From positions 1 through 54,728 of the forward strand of contig JAITVS010000368.1 of assembly GCA_031285685.1 (NCBI GenBank): a stretch of 54,728 bases of DNA, given 5' to 3'. Both the position numbers and the translations under genes were made by a program. This DNA is from Tannerella sp. GTDB lineage: Bacteria > Bacteroidota > Bacteroidia > Bacteroidales > Tannerellaceae. This document shows, in pieces, positions 2,598 to 37,525 of the stretch; the first letter of the stretch is position 1, and each line of letters opens with the position of its first letter. Under the pieces are notes generated by a model. It saw nothing but the letters and a program-made list of their open reading frames with translations, was not told the DNA's origin and did not search any database.

Positions 2598-3761
2598 ATG
2601 GCAGGGAAGTTTCGGGTATCATTATTGGGATGGGTTGCTATCGCTATTGCGGGTGGAATATTACTCGGACAAATAGTACCGGCGGGTATCGCCCGTATCT
2701 TTGTGACCTTTAATTCCCTTTTCGGGAATTTCTTATCATTTTCCATTCCTTTGATTATTCTGGGATTGGTGGCTCCGGCAATCGGTGAGTTGGGTAAAGG
2801 TGCAGGCCGTCTGCTTGTTATTACGGCTTTGATTGCTTATGGCTCTACTATTTTCTCCGGGTTTTTTACCTACTTTTCCGGTTCGGCTGTTTTTCCGCAT
2901 ATCCTGACTAAAAATGTAGAATTGACGGCATTGGAAAATCCGGAAGATTTTATGCTGGCGCCTTATTTTACGGTTGCGATGCCACCGTTGATGGATGTTA
3001 TGACATCGTTGTTGCTGGCGTTTGTGATCGGTCTTGGTCTTTCATCCATCAAAGGAACAACTCTACAGGCATGTTTTGCGGATTTCCGTGACATCATCAT
3101 GAAACTGATCAAATCGGTCATTGTTCCTTTACTGCCGCTTCATATCTTCGGTATCTTTTTAAATATTACAGTTAGCGGACAAGTCGCCGTCATTATTTTG
3201 ATGTTTCTGAAAGTGATCGTTTTTATTTTTATATTGCATGTTATTTTACTGTTACTACAGTTTATTATTGCCGGAGCGATTGCTAAAAAAAATCCGTTTG
3301 TGATGCTGAGGAACATGTTGCCGGCTTATCTTACGGCTTTGGGTACACAATCGTCCGCCGCAACGATTCCCGTAACGTTAAGGCAGGTTCTGAAAAACGG
3401 AGTGCGTGAAAACATTGCTGTTTTTACGGTTCCGCTTTGTGCCACAATCCATCTGGCCGGCAGTACGATGAAAATTGTAGCCTGTGCCATGGCTATTATG
3501 TTTATGGCCGGTGAACCTGTGACACTGTCTCAATACGGAGGTTTTATCCTTATGCTGGGTATTACGATGGTTGCAGCCCCGGGTGTTCCCGGAGGCGCTA
3601 TTATGGCAGCATTGGGCTTACTCGGGAGCATGCTTGGTTTTAGTGAAACATTACAGGCGCTGATGATTGCCCTTTATATAGCAATGGACAGTTTCGGAAC
3701 AGCATGTAACGTGACGGGCGACGGAGCGATTGCTGTGGTGGTGGACCGGATTGCGAAATAA
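2598..3761 (+). CDS. dicarboxylate/amino acid:cation symporter (DAACS family)
   Basis: A 387-residue membrane protein that resembles the sodium- or proton-coupled glutamate/serine/dicarboxylate carriers (GltP, GltT, SstT). Eight or so hydrophobic segments are visible. The re-entrant loop HP1 contains Gly-Thr-Gln-Ser-Ser-Ala-Ala-Thr-Ile-Pro near residue 250, matching the family's serine-rich motif. The HP2/TM8 region carries Ala-Ala-Pro-Gly-Val-Pro-Gly-Gly near 335 and a final Asp-Ser-Phe-Gly-Thr-Ala-Cys-Asn-Val-Thr-Gly-Asp-Gly block whose Asp and Asn normally bind substrate and cation. Substrate cannot be read from sequence. It follows nhaC by 4 bases and converges with folE, the two genes ending 7 bases apart. 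Confidence 0.8.
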   Translation: MAGKFRVSLLGWVAIAIAGGILLGQIVPAGIARIFVTFNSLFGNFLSFSIPLIILGLVAPAIGELGKGAGRLLVITALIAYGSTIFSGFFTYFSGSAVFPHILTKNVELTALENPEDFMLAPYFTVAMPPLMDVMTSLLLAFVIGLGLSSIKGTTLQACFADFRDIIMKLIKSVIVPLLPLHIFGIFLNITVSGQVAVIILMFLKVIVFIFILHVILLLLQFIIAGAIAKKNPFVMLRNMLPAYLTALGTQSSAATIPVTLRQVLKNGVRENIAVFTVPLCATIHLAGSTMKIVACAMAIMFMAGEPVTLSQYGGFILMLGITMVAAPGVPGGAIMAALGLLGSMLGFSETLQALMIALYIAMDSFGTACNVTGDGAIAVVVDRIAK

Positions 3762-23568: not shown

Positions 23569-26500
23569 ATGAAACGGAGAATAATATATATTACAATTAT
23601 TATTGCATGTGTGTCCGGAATATTCGTGATGAATGCCGGATATCCGGCGTTGCTTACCGATATGCCGGTCTTAGGTATATTTTCTCCGGAAGATGTTATG
23701 CCTGATGATACAATCGTAAAACCCCGTATTCCCGTAAAGAAAACAGTTCCGGAAGAATATGAAGACCTGAATAACAACTCTGCGTCCGACCTCAGGGACC
23801 CGGATAATCTTCAGACCGAAGTGGAATACGATCTGAATTCGGGAACCTATCTGATACGTTCAAGGGTAGGTGATTTGGATTTGGGTACACCTTTGCGCAT
23901 GACTCCCGAAGAGTATCAGAATTACAGCCTGAAACAGTCATTAAACCAATACTTTCAGGATAGAAACAGGAGTGCGCTGGATAGTGTGGGTGCTGCCGGA
24001 AGAGGAGGGAATCAGTTTAATCTGATGGATATGCAGTTTGATCTTGGAGGTGCGGATAAATTATTCGGTCCCGGAGGAGTACGTCTCCGGTCACAGGGAA
24101 CGATCGGTCTGGATATGGGTCTGAAAACGAGTAAAACGAAAAATCCTTCACTGCCGGAAAAGTCACGTAGCCGTACGTTTTTCAACTTCGACACGAACGT
24201 GCAGATGAATATGCATGCTTCTGTAGGAACAAAGATTAATTTCGATCTGAATTATAATACTGAGGCGGCTTTCGATTTTGACGCAACCAAACTGAAACTG
24301 GCGTATGCCGGGGAGGAAGACGAGATCTTAAAATCATTGGAAGGGGGTAATGTTAGTTTATCGACGAACAATTCACTGATCCGTGGCGGGTCTGCATTGT
24401 TTGGTGTTAAAACAGACCTGCAGTTTGGTAAGTTGCGTGTGAAAGCGCTTCTTGCACAACAGGAATCCGATTCGAGATCTGTTTCTGCAAAAGGAGGATC
24501 CCAGATGACAGAATTTGAAATAGCAGTTGACAATTACGACGAAAACCGTCACTATTTCCTGGCCTATTATTTCCGTGATAATTATGACAAGGCAATGTCT
24601 AAGTTGCCTTATATTTCATCTCCGATTTCAATCAATCGTGTTGAAGTGTGGATAACCAATAAGATCAGTTCTACAGGGCAAACCCGCAATCTTGTGGCTT
24701 TTTCGGACCTGGGAGAATATGAGCATATAAGCAATCCGGCATTCACTCCTTCCGGAAGAGTTAATGTTCCTTATAATGAGGCAAATACACTGTATAGGAC
24801 GATCGTCGATAATTATCCTGGTGCGCGTGAAATAAGTTCTGTTACACAAACACTGGAAGGTTTTTTAGAGGGGGGGCTAGACTATGAAAAAGTGGAAAGC
24901 GCCCGAATGTTGTCTCCTTCGGAATATAAGTTTAATGCACAGCTCGGATATATTTCCCTCAATTCAAAACTGCAAGCGGATGAGGTACTCGCTGTCGCTT
25001 TTGAGTATACATATAACGGGGATGTGTATCAGGTTGGTGAGTTTTCGAGTGATAAGACAGAAAATACAAATCAGTGCTTGTTTCTTAAAGTTTTGAAAGG
25101 AACATCATTATCTCCTTCTATGCCATTCTGGGATTTGATGATGAAAAATATATATTCTCTGAATGCCTATTCAATACAAAAAACAAAATTCAGGCTTGAT
25201 ATTGTTTATCAGAGCGATACTGCCGGAACTTATGTATATACAATTCCCGAAGGAAATATAAAGGACCAGACTTTGTTGAAAGTGATGAGCCTCGACCGGT
25301 TGAACTCTAATAATGAAGTGGTGCCGGGAGGAAGCGGGGACGGCTTTTTTGATTATGTGGAAGGTTATACGATCATTTCGAATAACGGGCGGATTGTCTT
25401 TCCGGTCGTGGAGCCTTTTGGTTCGCACTTACGTGAAAAAATAGGAAATGATGAAATCGCAGACAAATATGTTTATCAGGAGTTGTATGATTCTACTCTG
25501 ACAGTTGCCAAGCAGATTGCAGAGAAGAATAAGTTCCTTTTACGCGGACAATATACAGGTTCGGCGTCCAATGTCATACAACTTGGTGCGACGAATGTGG
25601 CGAGAGGTTCTGTTGTAGTGAGAGCTAACGGTATCATATTGACCGAGAATGTAGATTATATTGTTAACTATAGTTCGGGTACTGTGACTATTCTGAATGA
25701 AAATCTCATATCCAGTAATGCGTCAATCAATGTTTCGCTCGAAAATCAATCTACTTTCAGTACACAACGGAAAACGATGTTTGGAGCTGATCTGAATTAT
25801 GAATTCTCCAAGAATTTCAATATGGGCGCCACCATTATGCATTTGTCCGAAATGCCGTTGACGACGAAAACGACGTTGGGTGATGAGTCGGTTAAGAATA
25901 CGCTGTGGGGGGTTAATCTTGATTATAAAGGGCAAAGCCAGTGGCTGACGAATATGTTTGATAAATTGCCGTTGCTGTCACTTACGCAGCCAAGTAGCTT
26001 TTCCGTTAATGCCGAATTTGCACATCTGATAGCCGGACATTATCAGAATAAATATACCGGAGAATATTCGTACCTGGATGATTTTGAATCGACACAGAGT
26101 GAGTTTGATTTGCTGAACCCGTATTTCTGGAATCTGGCAAGCACTCCTTATGATAATAATAAGACAACAGAACTGTTTCCGGAAGCCGGTCTTGTCAATA
26201 ATGTTGATTATGGTAAAAACCGTGCTTTGCTGGCCTGGTATTATGTGGATGGAATATTTACCCGTAAAAACTCCTCATTAAGGCCCTCTTATATGACGAA
26301 TGATGACATATCCAATCATTATGTCAGGGCTGTCCAGTCAAAAGAATTGTTTCCCGACAGGGATCTCGGAACTACCGATAACAATTATCTGAATGTCCTG
26401 AATCTGGCCTATTATCCGAATGAGCGCGGACCTTATAACCTGGATGCTGATAATATTAATAGCGACGGTTCTTTGATGTATCCCGAAAAACGCTGGGGAG

Positions 26501-29500
26501 GTATGATGCGAAGTCTTGATCAGACGGACTTTGAGACGGCAAATATTCAGTATATTGAATTCTGGGTAATGGATCCGTTTATTTATGATAGTGTGAATGC
26601 CAAAGGCGGTGATCTGTATTTCAATCTTGGTGAAATATCAGAAGATATCCTGAAAGACGAAAAGAAATTTTTTGAAAACGGGTTACCTGTAGATGGTGAT
26701 ATGTCACAGGTTGACACGACTGTGTGGGGGAAAGTTCCGAAACAGCAAAGTACTGTTTATGCATTTGATAATACTACGGGAACACGAAGACTCCAGGATG
26801 TCGGATTTAACGGGCTTTCCTCAGAAGAGGAAAGAAGCAGGAACGGTTCATTTCCTGCTTATGATGAATTTTTGGATAAACTGGAACGTAACTTGTCTCC
26901 TGAGGTAATCCAGCAAATGCAGAATGATCCGCTTTCACCGTTCAATGACCCTGCTACCGATAATTACCGTTATTTCCGGGGTTCCGATTATGACAGAGAA
27001 CAGGCGGATATCCTTACCCGGTATAAACGTTATAACGGGGTGGAGGGTAATTCGGCAGAGGCTGGTGATTCTCAGGAGTCTTATAGTACATCTGCGACCA
27101 TGCTCCCGGATGTTGAAGATTTTAACAAAGATAACACGCTGAACGAAAATGAAAAATACTATCAGTATAAAGTATCCATTCGTCCGGAAGATATGGAAGT
27201 TGGAATGAATTATATTGTAGATAAACGAACTTCAAATGTAAGATTGCTTAATGGAAAGACCGAGCAGGTGACATGGTATCAGTTCAAAATTCCGATAAAA
27301 GATTATAGCCATAAAGTAGGAACAATATCCGATTTCAGTTCTATCCGTTTTATGCGTACTTTTATGACCGGTTTTGAAAAGACTACCATCTTGCGTTTCG
27401 GTAAATTCTCTCTGGTGCGTGGCGAATGGCGTCCGTACGAGCAGGCATTGTATAAGTCTGATGCGGCTCCTTCCGTCAATGGTTCTTTATCTGTTTCGAC
27501 TATAAATATAGAGGAAAATAGTGATCGTCAGCCGATAAATTATATGCTTCCACCGGGAGTTTCACGTATAACGGACCCCAGTCAGCCACAACTGCGTCAG
27601 CAGAACGAACAATCGTTGTCTTTGAAAGTTGAAAATCTTGCATCTCTGGATGCCCGTGCAGTATATAAAAGAACAAGCTATGATTTGCGCCGCTATAAGA
27701 GAATGCAACTCTTTGTGCATGCTGAAAAATTAGTTGATGATGTTACAAGCCTTGAAAGCGGAGATCTTTCGATTTTCGTACGTCTGGGTTCGGATTATAA
27801 AAATAACTATTATGAGTATGAGATTCCATTGAATCTTACACCTTTTGGCAGTACGAAGAGCGATGAGGTATGGCTTTCGGAGAATATGTTTAACTTTACG
27901 CTGGAGACGTTTACGGATCTGAAACTTGAGCGTAATCGTGCTAAAAGTAGTGGTGAAGGAGTGACATATGGTACGCTTTATTCAAAATATGATCCGAATA
28001 ATACCCGTAATACGATAAGTATTATCGGTAATCCCGCTCTTTCTGAAGTACAGGTCATTATGATTGGCATACGAAATAATTCGGGAGATACAAAAAGTGC
28101 GGAAGTCTGGATCAATGAATTGCGTGTCACGGATTTCGACGAGTCGGGAGGATGGGCTGCAAATACGAATATGAATCTTGCCATTTCCGATTTTGCGACT
28201 ATCAATGCAACCGGCAGCATTGAGACGGCAGGGTTCGGAGGGTTGGAGCAATCCGTATCCGAGCGGAGCCTTGAAGATTATAAGCAGTTCAGTATTGCGA
28301 CAACGGTTCAGTTAGGAAAGCTATTTCCAAAGAAAGTGAGAGTATCTCTTCCGTTATATTATGCATATTCGAAAGAAGTGACGTCGCCTCAGTATAATCC
28401 GCTGGATCAGGATATTATTCTTCAAGAAGCGATAGATAACGAACCGACAAAAGCAGGGAAAGACTCTATACGCAGTTTCTCCAATGATGTTCTGACAACA
28501 AATGCGTTTGCCCTTAATAATGTGCGTGTTGATGTAAGAAGTAAAAAACCGATGCCTTATGATCCGGCTAACTTTTCAATGGGCTACGCTTCAAATGTAG
28601 AAAAAAGAACGAATCCTGAAACAGAGTATGAAACAACAAAGAATTATCAGGGTAATCTGGGGTATTCATATTCACCTTATGTAAAACCGTTGAAGCCATT
28701 CGGGAAAGTCAAGGATCATGGCGGGTACACAAAATATATAAAGCAACTCGCATTTTATTATTTGCCTTCGTCAATTAGTTTACAGAATACGATTACGCGT
28801 AATTATTATGAAATACAGTTGCGTGATCTTAATAATGTGAATAATGCAAGCCAGATTCCTGTCTCTTTCAGCCAGAACTTTTACTGGGACAGAGCTTTTA
28901 ATATCCGGTGGAACCCATTGAGTAATTTTTCCCTGAATCTTAATACCGGTACAAATGCACGAATAGAAGAAGGATATTTGCAAGTAAATAAAAATCTGAA
29001 TCGGGATGATTATGAAAAATGGAAAGATACCGTAATGAAAAGTATTGCGGATCTTGGAACGCCTTTGCTGTATGACCAGAATTTTACGGCTACATATACC
29101 CCGCCGTTTCAACAAATACCGATACTTGACTGGATAACAGGTTCTGTTTCTTATAAAGCGACATACAACTGGGAAAGAGGCTCGTATGTCGATGAAGAAA
29201 CAATTATCGGAAACTCTGTAAAAAATCAACGTGTGATTGATCTACAGGGAAGTCTTAACCTGACGTCACTCTATAATAAGAATGATTTTCTGAAAAAAGT
29301 AAACCAGAAGAGTAATGTTAAGAAAAGCGCGACTACGCCTAAATCTACCAGGAGCAAGAATCGTTGGAAACCGTTGGAAATGGAGATTACCCTGAGCCTT
29401 GACAGTGGTGTTATCGTGACACATAATATGTTAACGAAACATGTCCTTATTAATGCGCGGCTTGCCAACGACAGTACTAAAAGATATAAGGTATCCTATA

Positions 29501-31032
29501 AAGCGCTTGATTTTGCGCGTGTACGTATCACAAACAGAGATACGGTCAGCCTTAAGTTATCCATACGTCCTGCTCCGCCAAGAGAGCAGAATTTTTCCTA
29601 TAAGCTTGCGGAATACAGTGCGCGTACGTTGATGATGCTACGCCGTATTAACATACAATATACATTGACTGACGGAATGTATCTGCCCGGATTTATGCCG
29701 GAGATCGGAAACTGGTTCGGTCAGAGTTCCACACCAACCGGACGGGCTCCGGGATGGGGATTTGCCTTTGGTGATGTGCGGCGGTCATTTATCGATGACG
29801 CCGAAGATAAAGGGTGGCTTGTCAATAATGAAGATAATATTACTCCGGCCATGATCAATGCATCGAAGGTGTTGACAGGCTCGGCTTTGATAGAGCCGTT
29901 GCCCGGCTTAAAAATAAATCTTAATGCGAATTATATGAATACGCATGATACGGAAATACAATATATGTATGCCGGAATGCCTGAGACCAGAGGTGGAACT
30001 TTCTCAATGACAACGATAGGGCTTGGCGGTTTCTTTGCCGGTTCGGGAGATGCGCGTAAAGGTTATAGATCCGATGTGTTTCAGGAAATGCTTGATAACA
30101 GAAATATAATAGCATCGCGTATACAAAACAGGTACACCGGGACAACCTATCCGGATGCGGGATTTATCTCGGAAACCAGTTATAAAAATACGGAGTATAG
30201 TCCGAATAACGGAACGGTGGGGCTTAATTCCAGTGATGTGCTTATTCCTTCATTTATAGCAGCTTATACGAATAAAAATCCTAAAAAAGTGGGACTGACA
30301 GCGTTTCCGTCATTGAGCAGTATATTGCCGAACTGGAATATAACCTATGACGGTTTGATGCAATTGCCTTTTATAAGTCAACGTTTTAAGAGTATGTCAT
30401 TATCACATCGGTATAATTGTGTATATACCATTGGGAGTTATAATTCTTACCTGAATTGGGTGAATGCAGGTATAGGCGGAGATCTCGGTTATGTCCGCAA
30501 TACCGAAACCGGTGCGCCGATACCTTCGATGGGTTACGAAATAGCATCGGTTACGCTGACCGAATCATTTAATCCTTTGTTGGGAATCGATGCCACATTC
30601 CTTAATAATGTGACTGCCGGGGCTAAGTATGCAAGAAACCGCACGATCAATCTTAATGCCACATCCTATCAGTTGGTAGAAGCATTTACGAATGATATTA
30701 CAATGAGCCTCGGTTATAAATATGCGGAATTTAATAAGATTCTCAAGATGAGGAAAAAAGGTGACTTTAGTAATGATCTCACAGTACGTATGGATTATAC
30801 TCGTCGTAAGGCCTTGGCGCTTGTCCGAAAACTGGAAGACGGGTATACACAGGCTACACAGGGTACAATTTCACAAACGATACAGTTTTCTGCAGATTAT
30901 GCATTTAGTAAAAAAGTTACATTGCGTGCATTTTATGATCTTCAGATTAATGAACCTTTAGTCTCAAGCTCTTCTTTCCCTACTTCAAACTCCAATTACG
31001 GAGTCAGCATTCAGATCTCACTCAATGAATAA
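23569..31032 (+). CDS. sprA: SprA, outer membrane translocon of the type IX secretion system
   Basis: A 2487-residue outer membrane beta-barrel through which folded T9SS cargo passes. Its size is within the SprA/Sov range. A signal peptide or anchor covers about 1-22 (Lys-Arg-Arg then Ile-rich). Asp/Asn- and aromatic-rich beta segments alternate through the whole length, with SprA-typical stretches such as Phe-Asp-Leu-Asn-Tyr-Asn-Thr-Glu near 225 and the recurring Glu-Val-Trp-(Ile/Val)-x-Asn blocks (near 360 and 1523). A repeated pattern of Asn-Pro-Leu-X-Asn-Phe or Leu-Pro-X-Leu motifs marks strand ends. It is the export route expected for the two cargo proteins at 12988-17596. No frameshift is seen in 7.4 kb. 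Confidence 0.93.
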   Translation: MKRRIIYITIIIACVSGIFVMNAGYPALLTDMPVLGIFSPEDVMPDDTIVKPRIPVKKTVPEEYEDLNNNSASDLRDPDNLQTEVEYDLNSGTYLIRSRVGDLDLGTPLRMTPEEYQNYSLKQSLNQYFQDRNRSALDSVGAAGRGGNQFNLMDMQFDLGGADKLFGPGGVRLRSQGTIGLDMGLKTSKTKNPSLPEKSRSRTFFNFDTNVQMNMHASVGTKINFDLNYNTEAAFDFDATKLKLAYAGEEDEILKSLEGGNVSLSTNNSLIRGGSALFGVKTDLQFGKLRVKALLAQQESDSRSVSAKGGSQMTEFEIAVDNYDENRHYFLAYYFRDNYDKAMSKLPYISSPISINRVEVWITNKISSTGQTRNLVAFSDLGEYEHISNPAFTPSGRVNVPYNEANTLYRTIVDNYPGAREISSVTQTLEGFLEGGLDYEKVESARMLSPSEYKFNAQLGYISLNSKLQADEVLAVAFEYTYNGDVYQVGEFSSDKTENTNQCLFLKVLKGTSLSPSMPFWDLMMKNIYSLNAYSIQKTKFRLDIVYQSDTAGTYVYTIPEGNIKDQTLLKVMSLDRLNSNNEVVPGGSGDGFFDYVEGYTIISNNGRIVFPVVEPFGSHLREKIGNDEIADKYVYQELYDSTLTVAKQIAEKNKFLLRGQYTGSASNVIQLGATNVARGSVVVRANGIILTENVDYIVNYSSGTVTILNENLISSNASINVSLENQSTFSTQRKTMFGADLNYEFSKNFNMGATIMHLSEMPLTTKTTLGDESVKNTLWGVNLDYKGQSQWLTNMFDKLPLLSLTQPSSFSVNAEFAHLIAGHYQNKYTGEYSYLDDFESTQSEFDLLNPYFWNLASTPYDNNKTTELFPEAGLVNNVDYGKNRALLAWYYVDGIFTRKNSSLRPSYMTNDDISNHYVRAVQSKELFPDRDLGTTDNNYLNVLNLAYYPNERGPYNLDADNINSDGSLMYPEKRWGGMMRSLDQTDFETANIQYIEFWVMDPFIYDSVNAKGGDLYFNLGEISEDILKDEKKFFENGLPVDGDMSQVDTTVWGKVPKQQSTVYAFDNTTGTRRLQDVGFNGLSSEEERSRNGSFPAYDEFLDKLERNLSPEVIQQMQNDPLSPFNDPATDNYRYFRGSDYDREQADILTRYKRYNGVEGNSAEAGDSQESYSTSATMLPDVEDFNKDNTLNENEKYYQYKVSIRPEDMEVGMNYIVDKRTSNVRLLNGKTEQVTWYQFKIPIKDYSHKVGTISDFSSIRFMRTFMTGFEKTTILRFGKFSLVRGEWRPYEQALYKSDAAPSVNGSLSVSTINIEENSDRQPINYMLPPGVSRITDPSQPQLRQQNEQSLSLKVENLASLDARAVYKRTSYDLRRYKRMQLFVHAEKLVDDVTSLESGDLSIFVRLGSDYKNNYYEYEIPLNLTPFGSTKSDEVWLSENMFNFTLETFTDLKLERNRAKSSGEGVTYGTLYSKYDPNNTRNTISIIGNPALSEVQVIMIGIRNNSGDTKSAEVWINELRVTDFDESGGWAANTNMNLAISDFATINATGSIETAGFGGLEQSVSERSLEDYKQFSIATTVQLGKLFPKKVRVSLPLYYAYSKEVTSPQYNPLDQDIILQEAIDNEPTKAGKDSIRSFSNDVLTTNAFALNNVRVDVRSKKPMPYDPANFSMGYASNVEKRTNPETEYETTKNYQGNLGYSYSPYVKPLKPFGKVKDHGGYTKYIKQLAFYYLPSSISLQNTITRNYYEIQLRDLNNVNNASQIPVSFSQNFYWDRAFNIRWNPLSNFSLNLNTGTNARIEEGYLQVNKNLNRDDYEKWKDTVMKSIADLGTPLLYDQNFTATYTPPFQQIPILDWITGSVSYKATYNWERGSYVDEETIIGNSVKNQRVIDLQGSLNLTSLYNKNDFLKKVNQKSNVKKSATTPKSTRSKNRWKPLEMEITLSLDSGVIVTHNMLTKHVLINARLANDSTKRYKVSYKALDFARVRITNRDTVSLKLSIRPAPPREQNFSYKLAEYSARTLMMLRRINIQYTLTDGMYLPGFMPEIGNWFGQSSTPTGRAPGWGFAFGDVRRSFIDDAEDKGWLVNNEDNITPAMINASKVLTGSALIEPLPGLKINLNANYMNTHDTEIQYMYAGMPETRGGTFSMTTIGLGGFFAGSGDARKGYRSDVFQEMLDNRNIIASRIQNRYTGTTYPDAGFISETSYKNTEYSPNNGTVGLNSSDVLIPSFIAAYTNKNPKKVGLTAFPSLSSILPNWNITYDGLMQLPFISQRFKSMSLSHRYNCVYTIGSYNSYLNWVNAGIGGDLGYVRNTETGAPIPSMGYEIASVTLTESFNPLLGIDATFLNNVTAGAKYARNRTINLNATSYQLVEAFTNDITMSLGYKYAEFNKILKMRKKGDFSNDLTVRMDYTRRKALALVRKLEDGYTQATQGTISQTIQFSADYAFSKKVTLRAFYDLQINEPLVSSSSFPTSNSNYGVSIQISLNE

Positions 31033-35393: not shown

Positions 35394-35849
35394 TTATTTG
35401 GCTTTTAATGTGATATCGGTTTCTTTTCTGGCAGCGCCCCGGTACCAGTCTTTTGCTTTTTTGTAGTAATCCTTTTGGGTAATCTCAATCTTTGTGGTGT
35501 CGCTTTGGTATGAACCGTTTTCTTTGTCAGTGGTTATTAAATATAATTCACTGTTCAGTAAATTATTCTTTATTTCTATCTTGTATTCTCCGGAGGTATC
35601 CGTCTGTATGGAATCTACTCCATGAAAAAGCGGTTCGTTGTCATAGTTATATTTTTCAGCGATCTTTACCTGGATATTGGAAATCGGTTCGCCTTTTTCG
35701 TTTGTTACTTTTCCCAAAAACTCATAGTCTGCATGCGGAGAGCCATATTCTGTAGGCTCATTACCACAGCTGGCAAATCCTAATAATGACATTAAGCCGG
35801 CTAATGCCCAATTTGTTCCTTTGACGAATTTGCGGTTTAATTTTTTCAT
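35394..35849 (-). CDS. radical SAM-associated lipoprotein B
   Basis: A 151-residue lipoprotein. The leader Met-Lys-Lys-Leu-Asn-Arg-Lys-Phe-Val-Lys-Gly-Thr-Asn-Trp-Ala (1-15), a hydrophobic stretch and a lipobox ending Phe-Ala-Ser-Cys (Cys28) indicate lipidation. Right after it comes one Tyr-Gly-Ser-Pro (35-38) and then a Gly-Lys-Val-Thr-Asn-Glu-Lys-Gly start of a small carboxypeptidase-regulatory-like beta domain (about 43-125), ending with Trp-Tyr-Arg-Gly-Ala-Ala-Arg-Lys-Glu. Leader and tail match lipoprotein A closely (36942-37466). It fits the Bacteroidales 'lipoprotein, rSAM/lipoprotein system' family. It lies 17 bases after the radical SAM gene. Its function is unknown; it is probably the enzyme's substrate or partner. 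Confidence 0.75.
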   Translation of the reverse strand: MKKLNRKFVKGTNWALAGLMSLLGFASCGNEPTEYGSPHADYEFLGKVTNEKGEPISNIQVKIAEKYNYDNEPLFHGVDSIQTDTSGEYKIEIKNNLLNSELYLITTDKENGSYQSDTTKIEITQKDYYKKAKDWYRGAARKETDITLKAK

Positions 35850-35866
35850 GATGGTTATTTGTTTAT

Positions 35867-36949
35867 TTATTGTTGCTTTGTACCTTCTTTTATTCTCTTA
35901 TAATGGCAAACGAGCAAATCGCCATTATCATCATGCAGGTGCATGCCGTTCCCTTCGCAGTAACGGAACATTTTGCAACCGGCGCATTCACCCCGATACA
36001 TCCATTCGCGGTCGCGATATGGTTTAAAGCCATCATTCCAAACATCGATGAAATGGTCTTTATAAATATTTCCCTGATAATAATTGGCACGGATGCTCGG
36101 GCATCCGGATATCGAACCGTCAGCTAATACGGACGCGACTGATATTCCTGCATTGCATTCATAAAAATGATCGCGTACTTCCGCTTCGTAACTGCCGAGA
36201 AATCCTTCGCAGCCATAAGAAACATGAAATCCTTCACGGCGACAATCGCGGATGAAATCCATCAGTTGTACGAATTGCGCATTGCTCAACTGAAGTTCCG
36301 GTATATTTGCCGCGCGTCCGACCGGGAAGACCGTAAAAATGCGCCATTGCCTGACTCCCAGATCAAGAAGATATTTTTTGAAAAGAGGTAAACTTTTGAA
36401 ATTTTTCTGATTGGCGCATGTGACGACATCCCACTTTACACCGGTTGTTTTAGTAAGCTCTTTGACGGATCGTTCGGCATGTATGAAACTTTCGGGATGG
36501 CGTCTCAGCCAGTTATGTTCTTCTTCAAAACCATCCAGGCTGATCGTTGCAGCCCGTAATCCCGAAGAGATGAGCCCGTTTAACCGTTCCGCAAAAAGCA
36601 ATCCGTTCGACACGATCCCCCATGGATATTCGCGTTTGTACAATTCAAGTCCGCAAGCCTCTATATCCGTACGTACAAGCGCTTCGCCTCCTGTAAAGGT
36701 GATAAGCAGTTTGTGCGTATCGACAAAAGGTGTTGTTTCATCAATGACTTTCAGAAAATCTTCCATCGGCATATCCGGATGTGCAGCTGATACGCGGCAA
36801 TCGCTTCCGCAATGACGACATGCGACATTACACCTTAAAGTGCACTCCCAGAATAATACACGTAGCTCGTGAAGCTTCACTTTATTCCGGTGTATCTTCC
36901 GGAACGTTTCTAAAGCAAGGCGCTTTTTTAGTCCGATGGAATTATTCAC
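35867..36949 (-). CDS. radical SAM/SPASM enzyme of the rSAM/lipoprotein system
   Basis: A 360-residue radical SAM protein. Cys40-x3-Cys44-x2-Cys47 is the canonical cluster for the SAM-bound 4Fe-4S; Cys36 and Cys51 flank it. Thr-Phe-Thr-Gly-Gly-Glu-Ala near 84-90 is the SAM-binding motif. The C-terminal SPASM region has Cys265, Cys283, Cys322, Cys325, Cys331 and Cys348, enough for one or two auxiliary clusters, as in peptide-modifying maturases. No signal peptide is seen, so it acts in the cytoplasm. It overlaps lipoprotein A by 8 bases and precedes lipoprotein B by 17. It matches the family described as 'radical SAM enzyme, rSAM/lipoprotein system' (TIGR04133-like, from memory); substrate and reaction are unproven. 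Confidence 0.85.
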   Translation of the reverse strand: MNNSIGLKKRLALETFRKIHRNKVKLHELRVLFWECTLRCNVACRHCGSDCRVSAAHPDMPMEDFLKVIDETTPFVDTHKLLITFTGGEALVRTDIEACGLELYKREYPWGIVSNGLLFAERLNGLISSGLRAATISLDGFEEEHNWLRRHPESFIHAERSVKELTKTTGVKWDVVTCANQKNFKSLPLFKKYLLDLGVRQWRIFTVFPVGRAANIPELQLSNAQFVQLMDFIRDCRREGFHVSYGCEGFLGSYEAEVRDHFYECNAGISVASVLADGSISGCPSIRANYYQGNIYKDHFIDVWNDGFKPYRDREWMYRGECAGCKMFRYCEGNGMHLHDDNGDLLVCHYKRIKEGTKQQ

Positions 36950-37466
36950 TCTCTTTATCTTTCAGTCCGATCTTTATTTCTTTTTCGGCTTTCCCTTCAT
37001 ACCATCCGCTGCCGTTTTGCAGATCCGAACTGAAAAATGAAATTTTTGCCGAATCGGTTTCAAAGCGGGGATTTTCGGATATGTCTTCGAACTTCATTTT
37101 GATATTTATGGAGTCGTTAGATGGAAAACCATTATATGAATAGTTGAAATTTCCGCCTTCTTTCGTGTAAAGAGTGTCTTTGATATCTACGCTAATAACC
37201 GGATAGCTGGGAATAAACCCGGAGGTGGCACGCTGATGATGATCTACACCCGGAATAACAACCTGTATTCCCTGCAAACCGTTCCCTTTGGTATCCGTCA
37301 CTTTTCCCGATACGATAAACTCTGCATATGGTGTACCGTATTCCAGATAGGGTACGCCGTATTCTACAGTATTGTTTTCTTCACAGGAAGAAAATCCCAG
37401 AAAAGACATTAGCCCTGCTAACGCCCAGTTTGTTCCTCTGACGAATTTACGATTCAATTTTTTCAT
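36942..37466 (-). CDS. radical SAM-associated lipoprotein A
   Basis: A 174-residue lipoprotein and first gene of the cassette. Its leader is nearly identical to lipoprotein B (Met-Lys-Lys-Leu-Asn-Arg-Lys-Phe-Val-Arg-Gly, lipobox Phe-Ser-Ser-Cys28). The stretch after the cysteine holds two Tyr-Gly-x-Pro-Tyr units in tandem (Tyr36-Gly-Val-Pro-Tyr and Tyr43-Gly-Thr-Pro-Tyr), then a Gly-Lys-Val-Thr-Asp-Thr-Lys-Gly beta domain, and ends with Gly-Trp-Tyr-Glu-Gly-Lys-Ala-Glu-Lys-Glu. Its stop overlaps the radical SAM start by 8 bases, implying translational coupling. The promoter -7 box is at 37518-37525. It has no recognised enzymatic motif. Confidence 0.75.
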   Translation of the reverse strand: MKKLNRKFVRGTNWALAGLMSFLGFSSCEENNTVEYGVPYLEYGTPYAEFIVSGKVTDTKGNGLQGIQVVIPGVDHHQRATSGFIPSYPVISVDIKDTLYTKEGGNFNYSYNGFPSNDSINIKMKFEDISENPRFETDSAKISFFSSDLQNGSGWYEGKAEKEIKIGLKDKESE

Positions 37467-37517: not shown

Positions 37518-37525
37518 CAAAGTTA
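37518..37525 (-). promoter_or_regulatory. -7 box of the radical SAM/lipoprotein operon
   Basis: Minus-strand TAACTTTG fits TAnnTTTG, about 45 bases ahead of lipoprotein A. No matching -33 element is seen at 19 bases. Confidence 0.5.

Follow-up and report, generated by a model that had tools for sequence, protein, structure and literature searches.

What does a radical SAM enzyme encoded between the genes of two small predicted lipoproteins act on, and by what chemistry? The question is raised by a three-gene cassette in a 54,728-nucleotide stretch of Tannerella sp. DNA (contig JAITVS010000368.1; the whole stretch is referred to here as the window). The genes lie on the minus strand in the order lipoprotein A, enzyme, lipoprotein B, and the open reading frame calls match the coordinates given below to the base. 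An earlier reading of the letters alone (the sequence-only reading) had described a SPASM-type radical SAM gene at 35867-36949 flanked by two lipoprotein genes, and this arrangement was confirmed: the enzyme gene overlaps the lipoprotein A gene by 8 bases, and the lipoprotein B gene starts 17 bases past the enzyme gene. A convergent ClC-type gene adjoins the cassette on one side and a divergent fmt gene on the other. The features are as follows.

37518..37525, minus strand: promoter-like TAnnTTTG 5′ of the operon (pattern match only), which we take to be of the Bacteroidota -7 type
36942..37466, minus strand: lipoprotein A, TIGR04134, two EYGxP sites (174 aa, ATG start)
37383..37466, minus strand: signal peptide and lipobox Cys28 of lipoprotein A, 28 residues (sequence, leader comparison)
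37356..37364, minus strand: lipoprotein A, predicted modification site 1, Glu35-Tyr36-Gly37 (sequence, YG conservation)
37335..37343, minus strand: lipoprotein A, predicted modification site 2, Glu42-Tyr43-Gly44 (sequence, alignment)
35867..36949, minus strand: radical SAM/SPASM enzyme, TIGR04133, predicted splicease (360 aa, GTG start)
36809..36832, minus strand: CxxxCxxC of the SAM-binding 4Fe-4S cluster, C40, C44, and C47 (alignment)
35906..36157, minus strand: SPASM region C265-C348, with C265, C283, C322, C325, C331, and C348 (Pfam, alignments)
35394..35849, minus strand: lipoprotein B, TIGR04134, one EYGxP site (151 aa, ATG start)
35766..35849, minus strand: signal peptide and lipobox Cys28 of lipoprotein B (sequence, leader comparison)
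35742..35750, minus strand: lipoprotein B, predicted modification site, Glu34-Tyr35-Gly36 (sequence, YG conservation)

The enzyme and its two lipoproteins

All three proteins passed curated NCBIfam cut-offs. The enzyme scored 563.8 bits against TIGR04133 (cut-off, 425), and lipoproteins B and A scored 137.5 and 114.2 bits, respectively, against TIGR04134 (cut-off, 39.8). The "rSAM/lipoprotein system" that the sequence-only reading had cited by name is this pair of models, whose names state no chemistry and of which TIGR04134 detects one partner design well. The enzyme also passed the Pfam gathering scores for Radical_SAM and SPASM, and its structure model (pLDDT, 92.1) contains no RRE (leader-binding) domain. 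The residues GS directly follow the CxxxCxxC motif and, by alignment, are common to TIGR04103 and TIGR03913 relatives. The SPASM CX2CX5CX3C motif is incomplete: Gly335 replaces the last (CX3C) cysteine, which is present in the aligned TIGR04103/TIGR03913 relatives, and six SPASM cysteines are left. Judging from sequence, C247, which is invariant in 49 aligned sequences, may stand in for the missing one. Relatives at an E value of ≤1e-60 numbered at least 6,602 after clustering, in a search of 5.8 billion proteins that scored just the 7,999 candidates with the most shared words, and their record titles name Bacteroidota of the gut, mouth, and rumen, among other sources.

The near-identical leaders and matching tails described earlier for the two lipoproteins were both borne out. 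The leaders are the same at 25 of 28 residues, whereas the mature parts agree at 44 of 110 aligned positions, and the same codon is used at 11 of 22 identical leader residues and at 22 of 43 in the mature parts (Met and Trp left out). The likeness of the leaders is thus maintained in the protein and does not stem from recent copying. The tails correspond to the W..G....K....LK end of TIGR04134, in which W155 is invariant (46 aligned sequences). The contrast between a one-motif and a two-motif lipoprotein is also real, with the motif region reading EYGSPHADY in lipoprotein B and EYGVPYLEYGTPYAEF in lipoprotein A, where Y43, G44, and P46 are invariant in the 46 aligned sequences. The structure model of lipoprotein A has a low-confidence tether at residues 25 to 38 and a beta sandwich from residue 47; site 1 lies inside the tether, where model confidence is very low, as is usual for disordered segments. 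A fold search with the lipoprotein domain gave weak matches only, to intradiol dioxygenases and teneurin (TM-score by query, ≤0.42), and a catechol dioxygenase profile match was far below its cut-off; an enzyme role for this domain is not claimed.

Co-occurrence of the enzyme and the lipoproteins

The co-occurrence search that the sequence-only reading had proposed was run on 295 genomes of the order. TIGR04134 was found over its cut-off in 40 genomes, 39 of which also have the enzyme at an E value of ≤1e-60 and 38 of which have it over the TIGR04133 cut-off. The enzyme was present in 69 of the 295 genomes (61 over the TIGR04133 cut-off), and the hypergeometric P value for the co-occurrence is 1.5e-28. 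A wide spread of the lipoprotein family without the enzyme was also looked for and not seen; of the 40 genomes, G227 alone lacks the enzyme, and there a QYG protein passes the TIGR04134 cut-off. Among orphan TIGR04134 genes, 11 of 12 are in genomes that have the enzyme, and 11 of the 12 over the cut-off have kept the YG. Together with the shared operons, these counts lend good support to the proposal, made earlier from the sequence, that the lipoproteins are modified by the enzyme ahead of their export. No partner over the TIGR04134 cut-off was found in 30 of the 69 enzyme genomes.

A Tyr-Gly site is common to the partners

The partners were counted by motif in a census of all 84 enzyme places in genomes of the order, of which the 81 with at least 500 bases upstream were counted. 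Within the 1.5 kb upstream, an ORF on the strand of the enzyme gene contains YG.P at 69 of 81 enzyme loci, compared to 4 of 81 on the opposite strand; when a lipobox-like Cys was also required, the counts were 69 and 0 of 81, respectively. At six of the 12 loci without an upstream YG.P, the YG partner takes a different form or lies elsewhere (L122, L130, L171, L173, L175, and L187), for a YG partner at 75 of the 81 testable places, and a clear one was missing at six (L123, L133, L135, and the distant enzymes L119-L121). In a second set of 31 loci found by the enzyme alone, 28 of them testable, upstream YG.P was present at 20 of 28 compared to 1 of 28 on the opposite strand; six of the other eight have YG partners, and no clear one was found for L041 and L054. 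The same-strand "NNYG" peptides at L041 were rejected as partners, being an out-of-frame reading of the duplicated 5′ end of the enzyme gene. YG without the P is a weak marker alone (75 versus 28 of 81, same versus opposite strand). A first strand control (72 versus 5 of 84; 4 of 44 downstream), which used 86 enzymes of mixed origin with some loci fetched via the lipoprotein, is superseded by the two enzyme-chosen sets, and a count of 132 observed versus 37.1 expected YG in 97 partners is no test, since those 97 were chosen for having YG.

Several designs of partner carry the site, which is usually YGxP and near the mature N terminus. First, there is the TIGR04134 domain itself. Second, there is a Cys-Tyr-Gly design, mostly under the TIGR04134 cut-off, in which the lipobox Cys is the X residue. 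Third, there are small lipoproteins with a C-terminal site and helical lipoproteins. Finally, there are AxAQYG secreted proteins and, in L042, L043, and L044, peptides that are not exported. Of 109 lipoprotein relatives, 108 have YG.P (the exception is P0216), and seven have it in tandem, 6 to 7 residues apart. The X residue and the residue after YG vary widely. Nor is YGxP strictly invariant, as CYGPREDYY, CYGTMNDYY, AAYGTFP, and AYGSS occur too, which leaves YG as the core. The NWALAGLMSLLGF leader is confined to close relatives, the other partners having a different leader or none, and a family-wide role for the leader in recognition was rejected. The shared trait of the partners is thus not the leader or the lipoprotein fold but the Tyr-Gly site, which persists while leaders, lipoboxes, and folds change and, at a few loci, export does too. 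The sequence-only reading, whose modification idea is well supported, had not picked out this site as the common feature.

Relation to spliceases and other known systems

Against TIGR04103, which we take to be equivalent to the PlpX subfamily IPR026482, the window enzyme scored 104.9 bits (cut-off, 725), which places it outside that subfamily, and it scored higher against TIGR04053 (112.6 bits). AhbD, NirJ2, or TIGR04053 outscored TIGR04103 in all seven further members and near-members scanned, and likewise in the Treponema enzyme. In the opposite direction, TIGR04133 ranks next for L155 and L156, whose best models are TIGR04103 and TIGR03913, respectively, with a small lead in L155 (184.6 versus 179.2 bits for AhbD). 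L155 is preceded by a peptide ORF ending PVMYGTGVRM. XYG neighbors were found at four of seven TIGR04103-like loci in Bacteroidota, a count made without a strand control, and not found at the other three. A 34-row tree, which left out the long branches acgM and L119, grouped TIGR04133 with TIGR04103/TIGR03913 (support, 99/97), the window enzyme being in a clade separate from that of TIGR04103; in a tree that kept both, the TIGR04133-TIGR04103 tie was not resolved.

According to the literature, PlpX-type spliceases act at an X-Tyr-Gly site, excising tyramine and leaving an alpha-ketoamide; they can do so several times per precursor, need no leader, accept tags with GYGLPI, and in the case of PlpX work together with PlpY, an RRE protein. 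PMC10533398 puts the number of spliceases predicted by the main survey of these enzymes at 939. The window cassette resembles this system in having a SPASM radical SAM enzyme beside X-Tyr-Gly precursors, with multiple sites possible; in the YGxP of the accepted tag and a leader that is not essential; and in the clustering of TIGR04103-like enzymes with TIGR04133 in one of the two trees. It differs in that no PlpY-like RRE partner ORF is present in the operon, the enzyme has one SPASM cysteine fewer, and the partners are full-length exported lipoproteins, whereas PlpX substrates are leader-core peptides. The enzyme is not classed as a PlpX-family member and is likened to PlpX in its working only.

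Other systems are more distant. TIGR03913 "GDL motif" maturases, related SPASM enzymes, adjoin DUF1843 peptides, several with PYGVAI or LYGVGI near the N terminus, but these are short peptides without a signal sequence, and some have YA or YM for YG (two of three in L156, one of three in L164, and one of two in L169). The anSMEs are alike in logic, being SPASM enzymes of similar fold (TM-score, 0.69 to 0.71 to the window enzyme) that modify a short motif in a full-length protein bound for export; the window enzyme differs in belonging to TIGR04133 and in its proposed target, Tyr-Gly and not Cys/Ser. The cassette does not read as a RiPP pathway, as the partners are full length with signal peptides and the three genes include no short core peptide, protease, or transporter. 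The main text of a Bacteroidales RiPP mining paper (PMC10352776) mentions neither "lipoprotein" nor "splice," and a limited literature search found no mention of TIGR04133, TIGR04134, or "radical SAM-associated putative lipoprotein" and no chemistry for a TIGR04133 enzyme.

Which reaction, and at which site

The Tyr-Gly site common to the partners points to one known chemistry, tyramine excision. We therefore consider TIGR04133 to be most likely a lipoprotein splicease, predicted with moderate confidence to excise tyramine at Glu-Tyr-Gly sites. The strongest competitor, a different reaction at the same site (epimerization, a Tyr-based C-C or C-O cross-link, hydroxylation, or desaturation), is unlikely but deserves serious weight. 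The site evidence names no chemistry, the missing SPASM cysteine and RRE partner separate the enzyme from PlpX, and fold matches to it include SPASM enzymes of similar fold, which carry out thioether, C-C, and formylglycine chemistry. However, the signature published for spliceases is XYG in which X is free, the variation of X and of the residue after YG leaves no fixed cross-link partner, and some enzymes scoring best on TIGR04103/TIGR03913 also adjoin XYG peptides.

It is improbable that YGxP is a structural or sorting signal and that the signal peptide or the W..G tail is modified instead. In the TIGR04134 proteins, YG is no more invariant than G24, G54, G105, and W155, and the protein-level likeness of the leaders of close relatives would also fit. 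Yet YG recurs in partners that have no match to TIGR04134, no such tail or leader, or no lipobox; tandem sites occur, the first copy in lipoprotein A lying within the low-confidence tether; and the orphan L143 has lost the YG while retaining the PHADY that follows. More improbable still is that the enzyme makes a small molecule bound or displayed by the lipoproteins. The sequence nearest to it among solved structures is BlsE, a cytosylglucuronate decarboxylase, but the YG site is found in partners whose folds differ, and the cassette has no further biosynthetic gene besides the radical SAM enzyme, which left the earlier suggestion of a displayed product without support. Chance neighborhood or hitch-hiking of an unrelated enzyme and lipoprotein family can be dismissed because of the 39-of-40 co-occurrence and the strand control (69 versus 4 of 81), and the enzyme and a YG lipoprotein are also found together on a Treponema plasmid.

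Proposed mechanism of a probable lipoprotein splicease

As a lipoprotein splicease, the enzyme would need SAM and a reduced Fe-S cluster, and for that reason it is expected to work on a precursor that is still cytoplasmic and unfolded, ahead of export by Sec. With no RRE domain in its model and no one leader common to the partners, it would recognize the short YGxP-type motif itself. A PlpX-type reaction would convert X-Tyr-Gly to X-CO-CO-Gly with loss of C8H9NO, 135.08 Da per site; for the three sites in the window, the expected loss is up to 270.15 Da for lipoprotein A (two sites) and 135.08 Da for lipoprotein B. The target sites would be in the short tether that follows the cysteine carrying the lipid anchor. 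The last step is the weakest: Lgt and LspA would then anchor the protein, displaying the alpha-ketoamide at the membrane, where with Glu as X its simplest role would be to trap or inhibit serine or cysteine proteases covalently. By extension, TIGR04133 enzymes may be leader-independent spliceases that rewrite exported-protein backbones across Bacteroidota, making anchor-side alpha-keto-beta-amino residues, in one design from the lipidated Cys, as membrane-anchored electrophilic protease traps; this wider claim is tentative, at slightly less than an even chance.

The TIGR04133/TIGR04134 pair was known by name, and the Tyr-Gly site common to its partners appears to be new. The site replaces "function unknown" with a named residue and a named predicted mass change. 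If the splicease reading is true, many such bacteria would carry backbone-edited lipoproteins with a reactive ketoamide in their envelope. This could bear on protease control, the cargo of vesicles, and contact with the immune system, and the one-site/two-site lipoprotein pair would then be a ready substrate set and labelling tool.

Cassette layout and twin leaders

The sequence-only reading had placed a SPASM-type radical SAM gene between two small lipoprotein genes, and its coordinates were borne out:

36942-37466, minus strand: lipoprotein A (TIGR04134, 114.2 bits; cut-off 39.8)
35867-36949, minus strand: radical SAM enzyme, GTG start, 8-base overlap with A (TIGR04133, 563.8 bits; cut-off 425)
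35394-35849, minus strand: lipoprotein B, 17-base gap after the enzyme (TIGR04134, 137.5 bits; cut-off 39.8)
37518-37525: TAnnTTTG box upstream of the operon

The cassette observation is sound. The neighboring genes are a convergent ClC-type gene and, transcribed divergently, fmt (which passes the TIGR00460 cut-off). The name given in that reading, "rSAM/lipoprotein system," was indeed already known (TIGR04133/TIGR04134); these model names state no function. Elsewhere in the window, 23569-31032 encode a 2487-aa protein that presumably resembles a SprA/Sov-type secretion protein.

The near-identical leaders of A and B were also confirmed, with 25 of 28 residues in common; the mature parts align over 110 residues, of which 44 are identical. 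At identical residues (Met and Trp left out), the same codon is used 11 times out of 22 in the leader and 22 out of 43 in the mature parts. This means that the leaders were held alike at the protein level without recent copying. The likeness is limited to close relatives, and leaders differ across the Bacteroidales.

Co-occurrence of enzyme and lipoprotein

Among 295 Bacteroidales genomes, 40 carried TIGR04134 over cut-off and 69 carried TIGR04133 at E <= 1e-60 (61 over its cut-off). The proposed check for co-occurrence came out positive: the enzyme was present in 39 of the 40 TIGR04134 genomes (38 over the enzyme cut-off; P = 1.5e-28), and the single genome without it (G227; 94% complete, 300 contigs) had a best TIGR04133 match of 50.4 bits. 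At least 53 of 84 enzyme places have a TIGR04134 match inside 5 kb, and 12 over-cut-off TIGR04134 places stand apart from any enzyme gene, 11 of them in enzyme-bearing genomes. Thirty of the 69 enzyme genomes had no TIGR04134 over cut-off, an apparent weakness until the gene neighbors were read.

A Tyr-Gly site shared by diverse partners

The neighbors of the fetched enzyme genes showed five partner designs: (i) TIGR04134 proteins; (ii) lipoproteins with the lipobox Cys immediately before Tyr-Gly (FQACYGTP); (iii) small lipoproteins of ~60 to 140 aa with the site close to the C terminus (VTKYGVPFNNN); (iv) helical-looking lipoproteins (REGAAVYGSPEVIQ); and (v) secreted proteins in which QYG comes after what looks, by eye, like a site of the signal peptidase I type. 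Designs (ii) and (v) have weak TIGR04134 similarity in profile search and are therefore not unrelated to (i); designs (iii) and (iv) gave no TIGR04134 match in that search. Three partners are apparently not exported: those at L043 (82 aa, two CVYGPPP), L044 (111 aa, AYGSS and AYGPC), and L042 (61 aa, TAYGPRR), the last with a stop overlapping the enzyme start. Tyr-Gly was the sole common feature found among all designs. A group of 97 partners chosen because they contain YG had 132 such sites; E preceded YG at 36 of them, M at 21, K at 17, C at 17, and another residue at 41, and P was the second residue after YG at 91.

The opposite strand served as a control. All 84 enzyme places were taken, and for 81 the sequence reaches 500 bases or more upstream (L109, L114, and L185 fall short). 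Within 1.5 kb upstream, a same-strand open reading frame (ORF) with YG.P occurred at 69 of the 81, compared to 4 when the other strand there was read; with a lipobox-like Cys added, the counts were 69 and 0. YG without the P was far less telling (75 versus 28). Of the 12 places without upstream YG.P, 6 have a YG partner in another form or place: 2.4 kb upstream at L122, AAYGTFP and MYGVRR at L130, AQYG proteins at L171, L173, and L175, and CYGVDEG at L187. No YG partner was found at L123, L133, and L135, and no clear one at the distant enzymes L119 to L121 (150 to 182 bits to the window enzyme). In a second set of 31 loci found by enzyme alone, 28 were testable (L051, L052, and L055 were left out), with YG.P upstream at 20 on the same strand versus 1 on the opposite strand. 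Six of the remaining eight have YG partners (L025, partly masked, L034, L042, L044, L048, and L050); L041 and L054 have no clear one. L041 shows two duplications in 3081-3757, one of the 5′ end of the enzyme gene and one of a small ORF on the opposite strand (copies of 58 and 60 codons; VYGAVC and IYGAI).

YG.P is present in 108 of 109 lipoprotein relatives, and in 7 it is in tandem, 6 to 7 residues apart, as in A. An alignment of 46 sequences shows no variation at Y43, G44, and P46 (numbering of A), nor at G24, G54, G105, and W155. Among the 12 orphan TIGR04134 genes over cut-off, all of which were read, 11 keep YG, and L142 carries it three times. The exception, L143 (2340-2711), in an enzyme-bearing genome, has lost YG and kept the downstream PHADY, an indication that the remaining part of the motif is able to serve the fold when YG is absent. 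L143 would make a natural non-substrate control.

Other arrangements were seen. L151 (G289:C37, 104703-105491) encodes a lipoprotein of 277 aa that matches the TIGR04134 domain twice but has only one YG.P, in the N-terminal tether. Larger secreted proteins without a lipobox (L146, L152, L171, L173, L175, L193, and L194) have AQYG at the predicted mature N terminus; some members lie directly downstream of the enzyme, and others are orphans. At L034 (3371-5086), a lipoprotein with two YGVP runs in frame, stop-free, into the enzyme (571 aa); either a true fusion or an error in the sequence may explain this. The system also occurs outside Bacteroidota: Treponema saccharophilum plasmid pTS1 (L154, 3806-6098) carries a TIGR04133 enzyme and a CYGMP lipoprotein adjoining an Mpi-type DNA invertase, making phase variation possible.

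Splicease chemistry as the predicted function

In published work, PlpX, a SPASM enzyme of IPR026482, acts together with the RRE protein PlpY to cut tyramine out of Xaa-Tyr-Gly, leaving an alpha-ketoamide (PMC11002830), and one precursor can undergo multiple splicing events (PMC10373908). The literature also gives a mass loss of 135.0757 Da, a dispensable leader, tags with GYGLPI accepted in some positions and others (including PIRPLYGLPI in FtsZ) not accepted, and 27 characterized and 939 predicted splicease systems (PMC10533398), and describes spliceotides as protease inhibitors (PMC11117315).

In a 34-row tree, TIGR04133 formed a clade (100/100) that joined TIGR04103/TIGR03913 against mftC, nirJ, and TIGR04053 (99/97); with acgM and L119 included, this grouping was not resolved. 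We take IPR026482 to correspond to TIGR04103. The title of a splicease survey, Scott et al. 2022, reportedly speaks of "peptides and proteins." The L155 enzyme, preceded by a peptide ORF ending PVMYGTGVRM, scored 234.9 bits with TIGR04103, 225.2 with TIGR03913, and then 184.6 with TIGR04133 (AhbD, 179.2); that of L156 scored 534.9 with TIGR03913, 460.8 with TIGR04103, and then 175.4 with TIGR04133 (AhbD, 154). Seven TIGR04103-like loci were found in 345 Bacteroidota genomes, none above the 725-bit cut-off; four had XYG neighbors, counted without strand control (L157, L158, L160, and L162), and three had none. In L162, from a Bacteroidales genome, the TIGR04103-like enzyme (1468-2919) has a likely multi-site partner downstream, a 214-aa protein in which KYGYPC units are repeated.

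The enzyme model (pLDDT 92.1, pTM 0.90) has one helix ahead of the first barrel strand and nothing RRE-like; its closest solved folds are BlsE, anSME, CteB, SuiB, SkfB, MoaA, and PqqE. In the lipoprotein A model, a signal helix (9-22) precedes a segment (25-38) with pLDDT below 50, which may partly stem from alignment gaps there, and a beta sandwich with weak fold matches begins at residue 47. Site 1 (35-37) therefore falls within a tether, whose end holds site 2 (42-44).

Several observations count against a splicease, chief among them the following. First, PlpX has PlpY, whereas the window operon has no PlpY-like protein. Second, the window enzyme lacks one cysteine of the full SPASM set; its Cys247 (CEGFLG), invariant in 49 aligned sequences and also found in L155 and L162, may replace the missing auxiliary-cluster ligand. 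Third, profile scores of the TIGR04133 members scanned favor other families over TIGR04103. Finally, some peptides in TIGR03913 loci carry YA or YM. Because it falls short of the PlpX profile cut-off, in addition to the PlpY and cysteine differences, we keep the window enzyme out of the PlpX family. The window system is most likely a lipoprotein splicease, as predicted here, with three candidate sites:

37356-37364, minus strand: candidate splice site in A
37335-37343, minus strand: candidate splice site in A
35742-35750, minus strand: candidate splice site in B

The enzyme is predicted to work like PlpX without belonging to its family.
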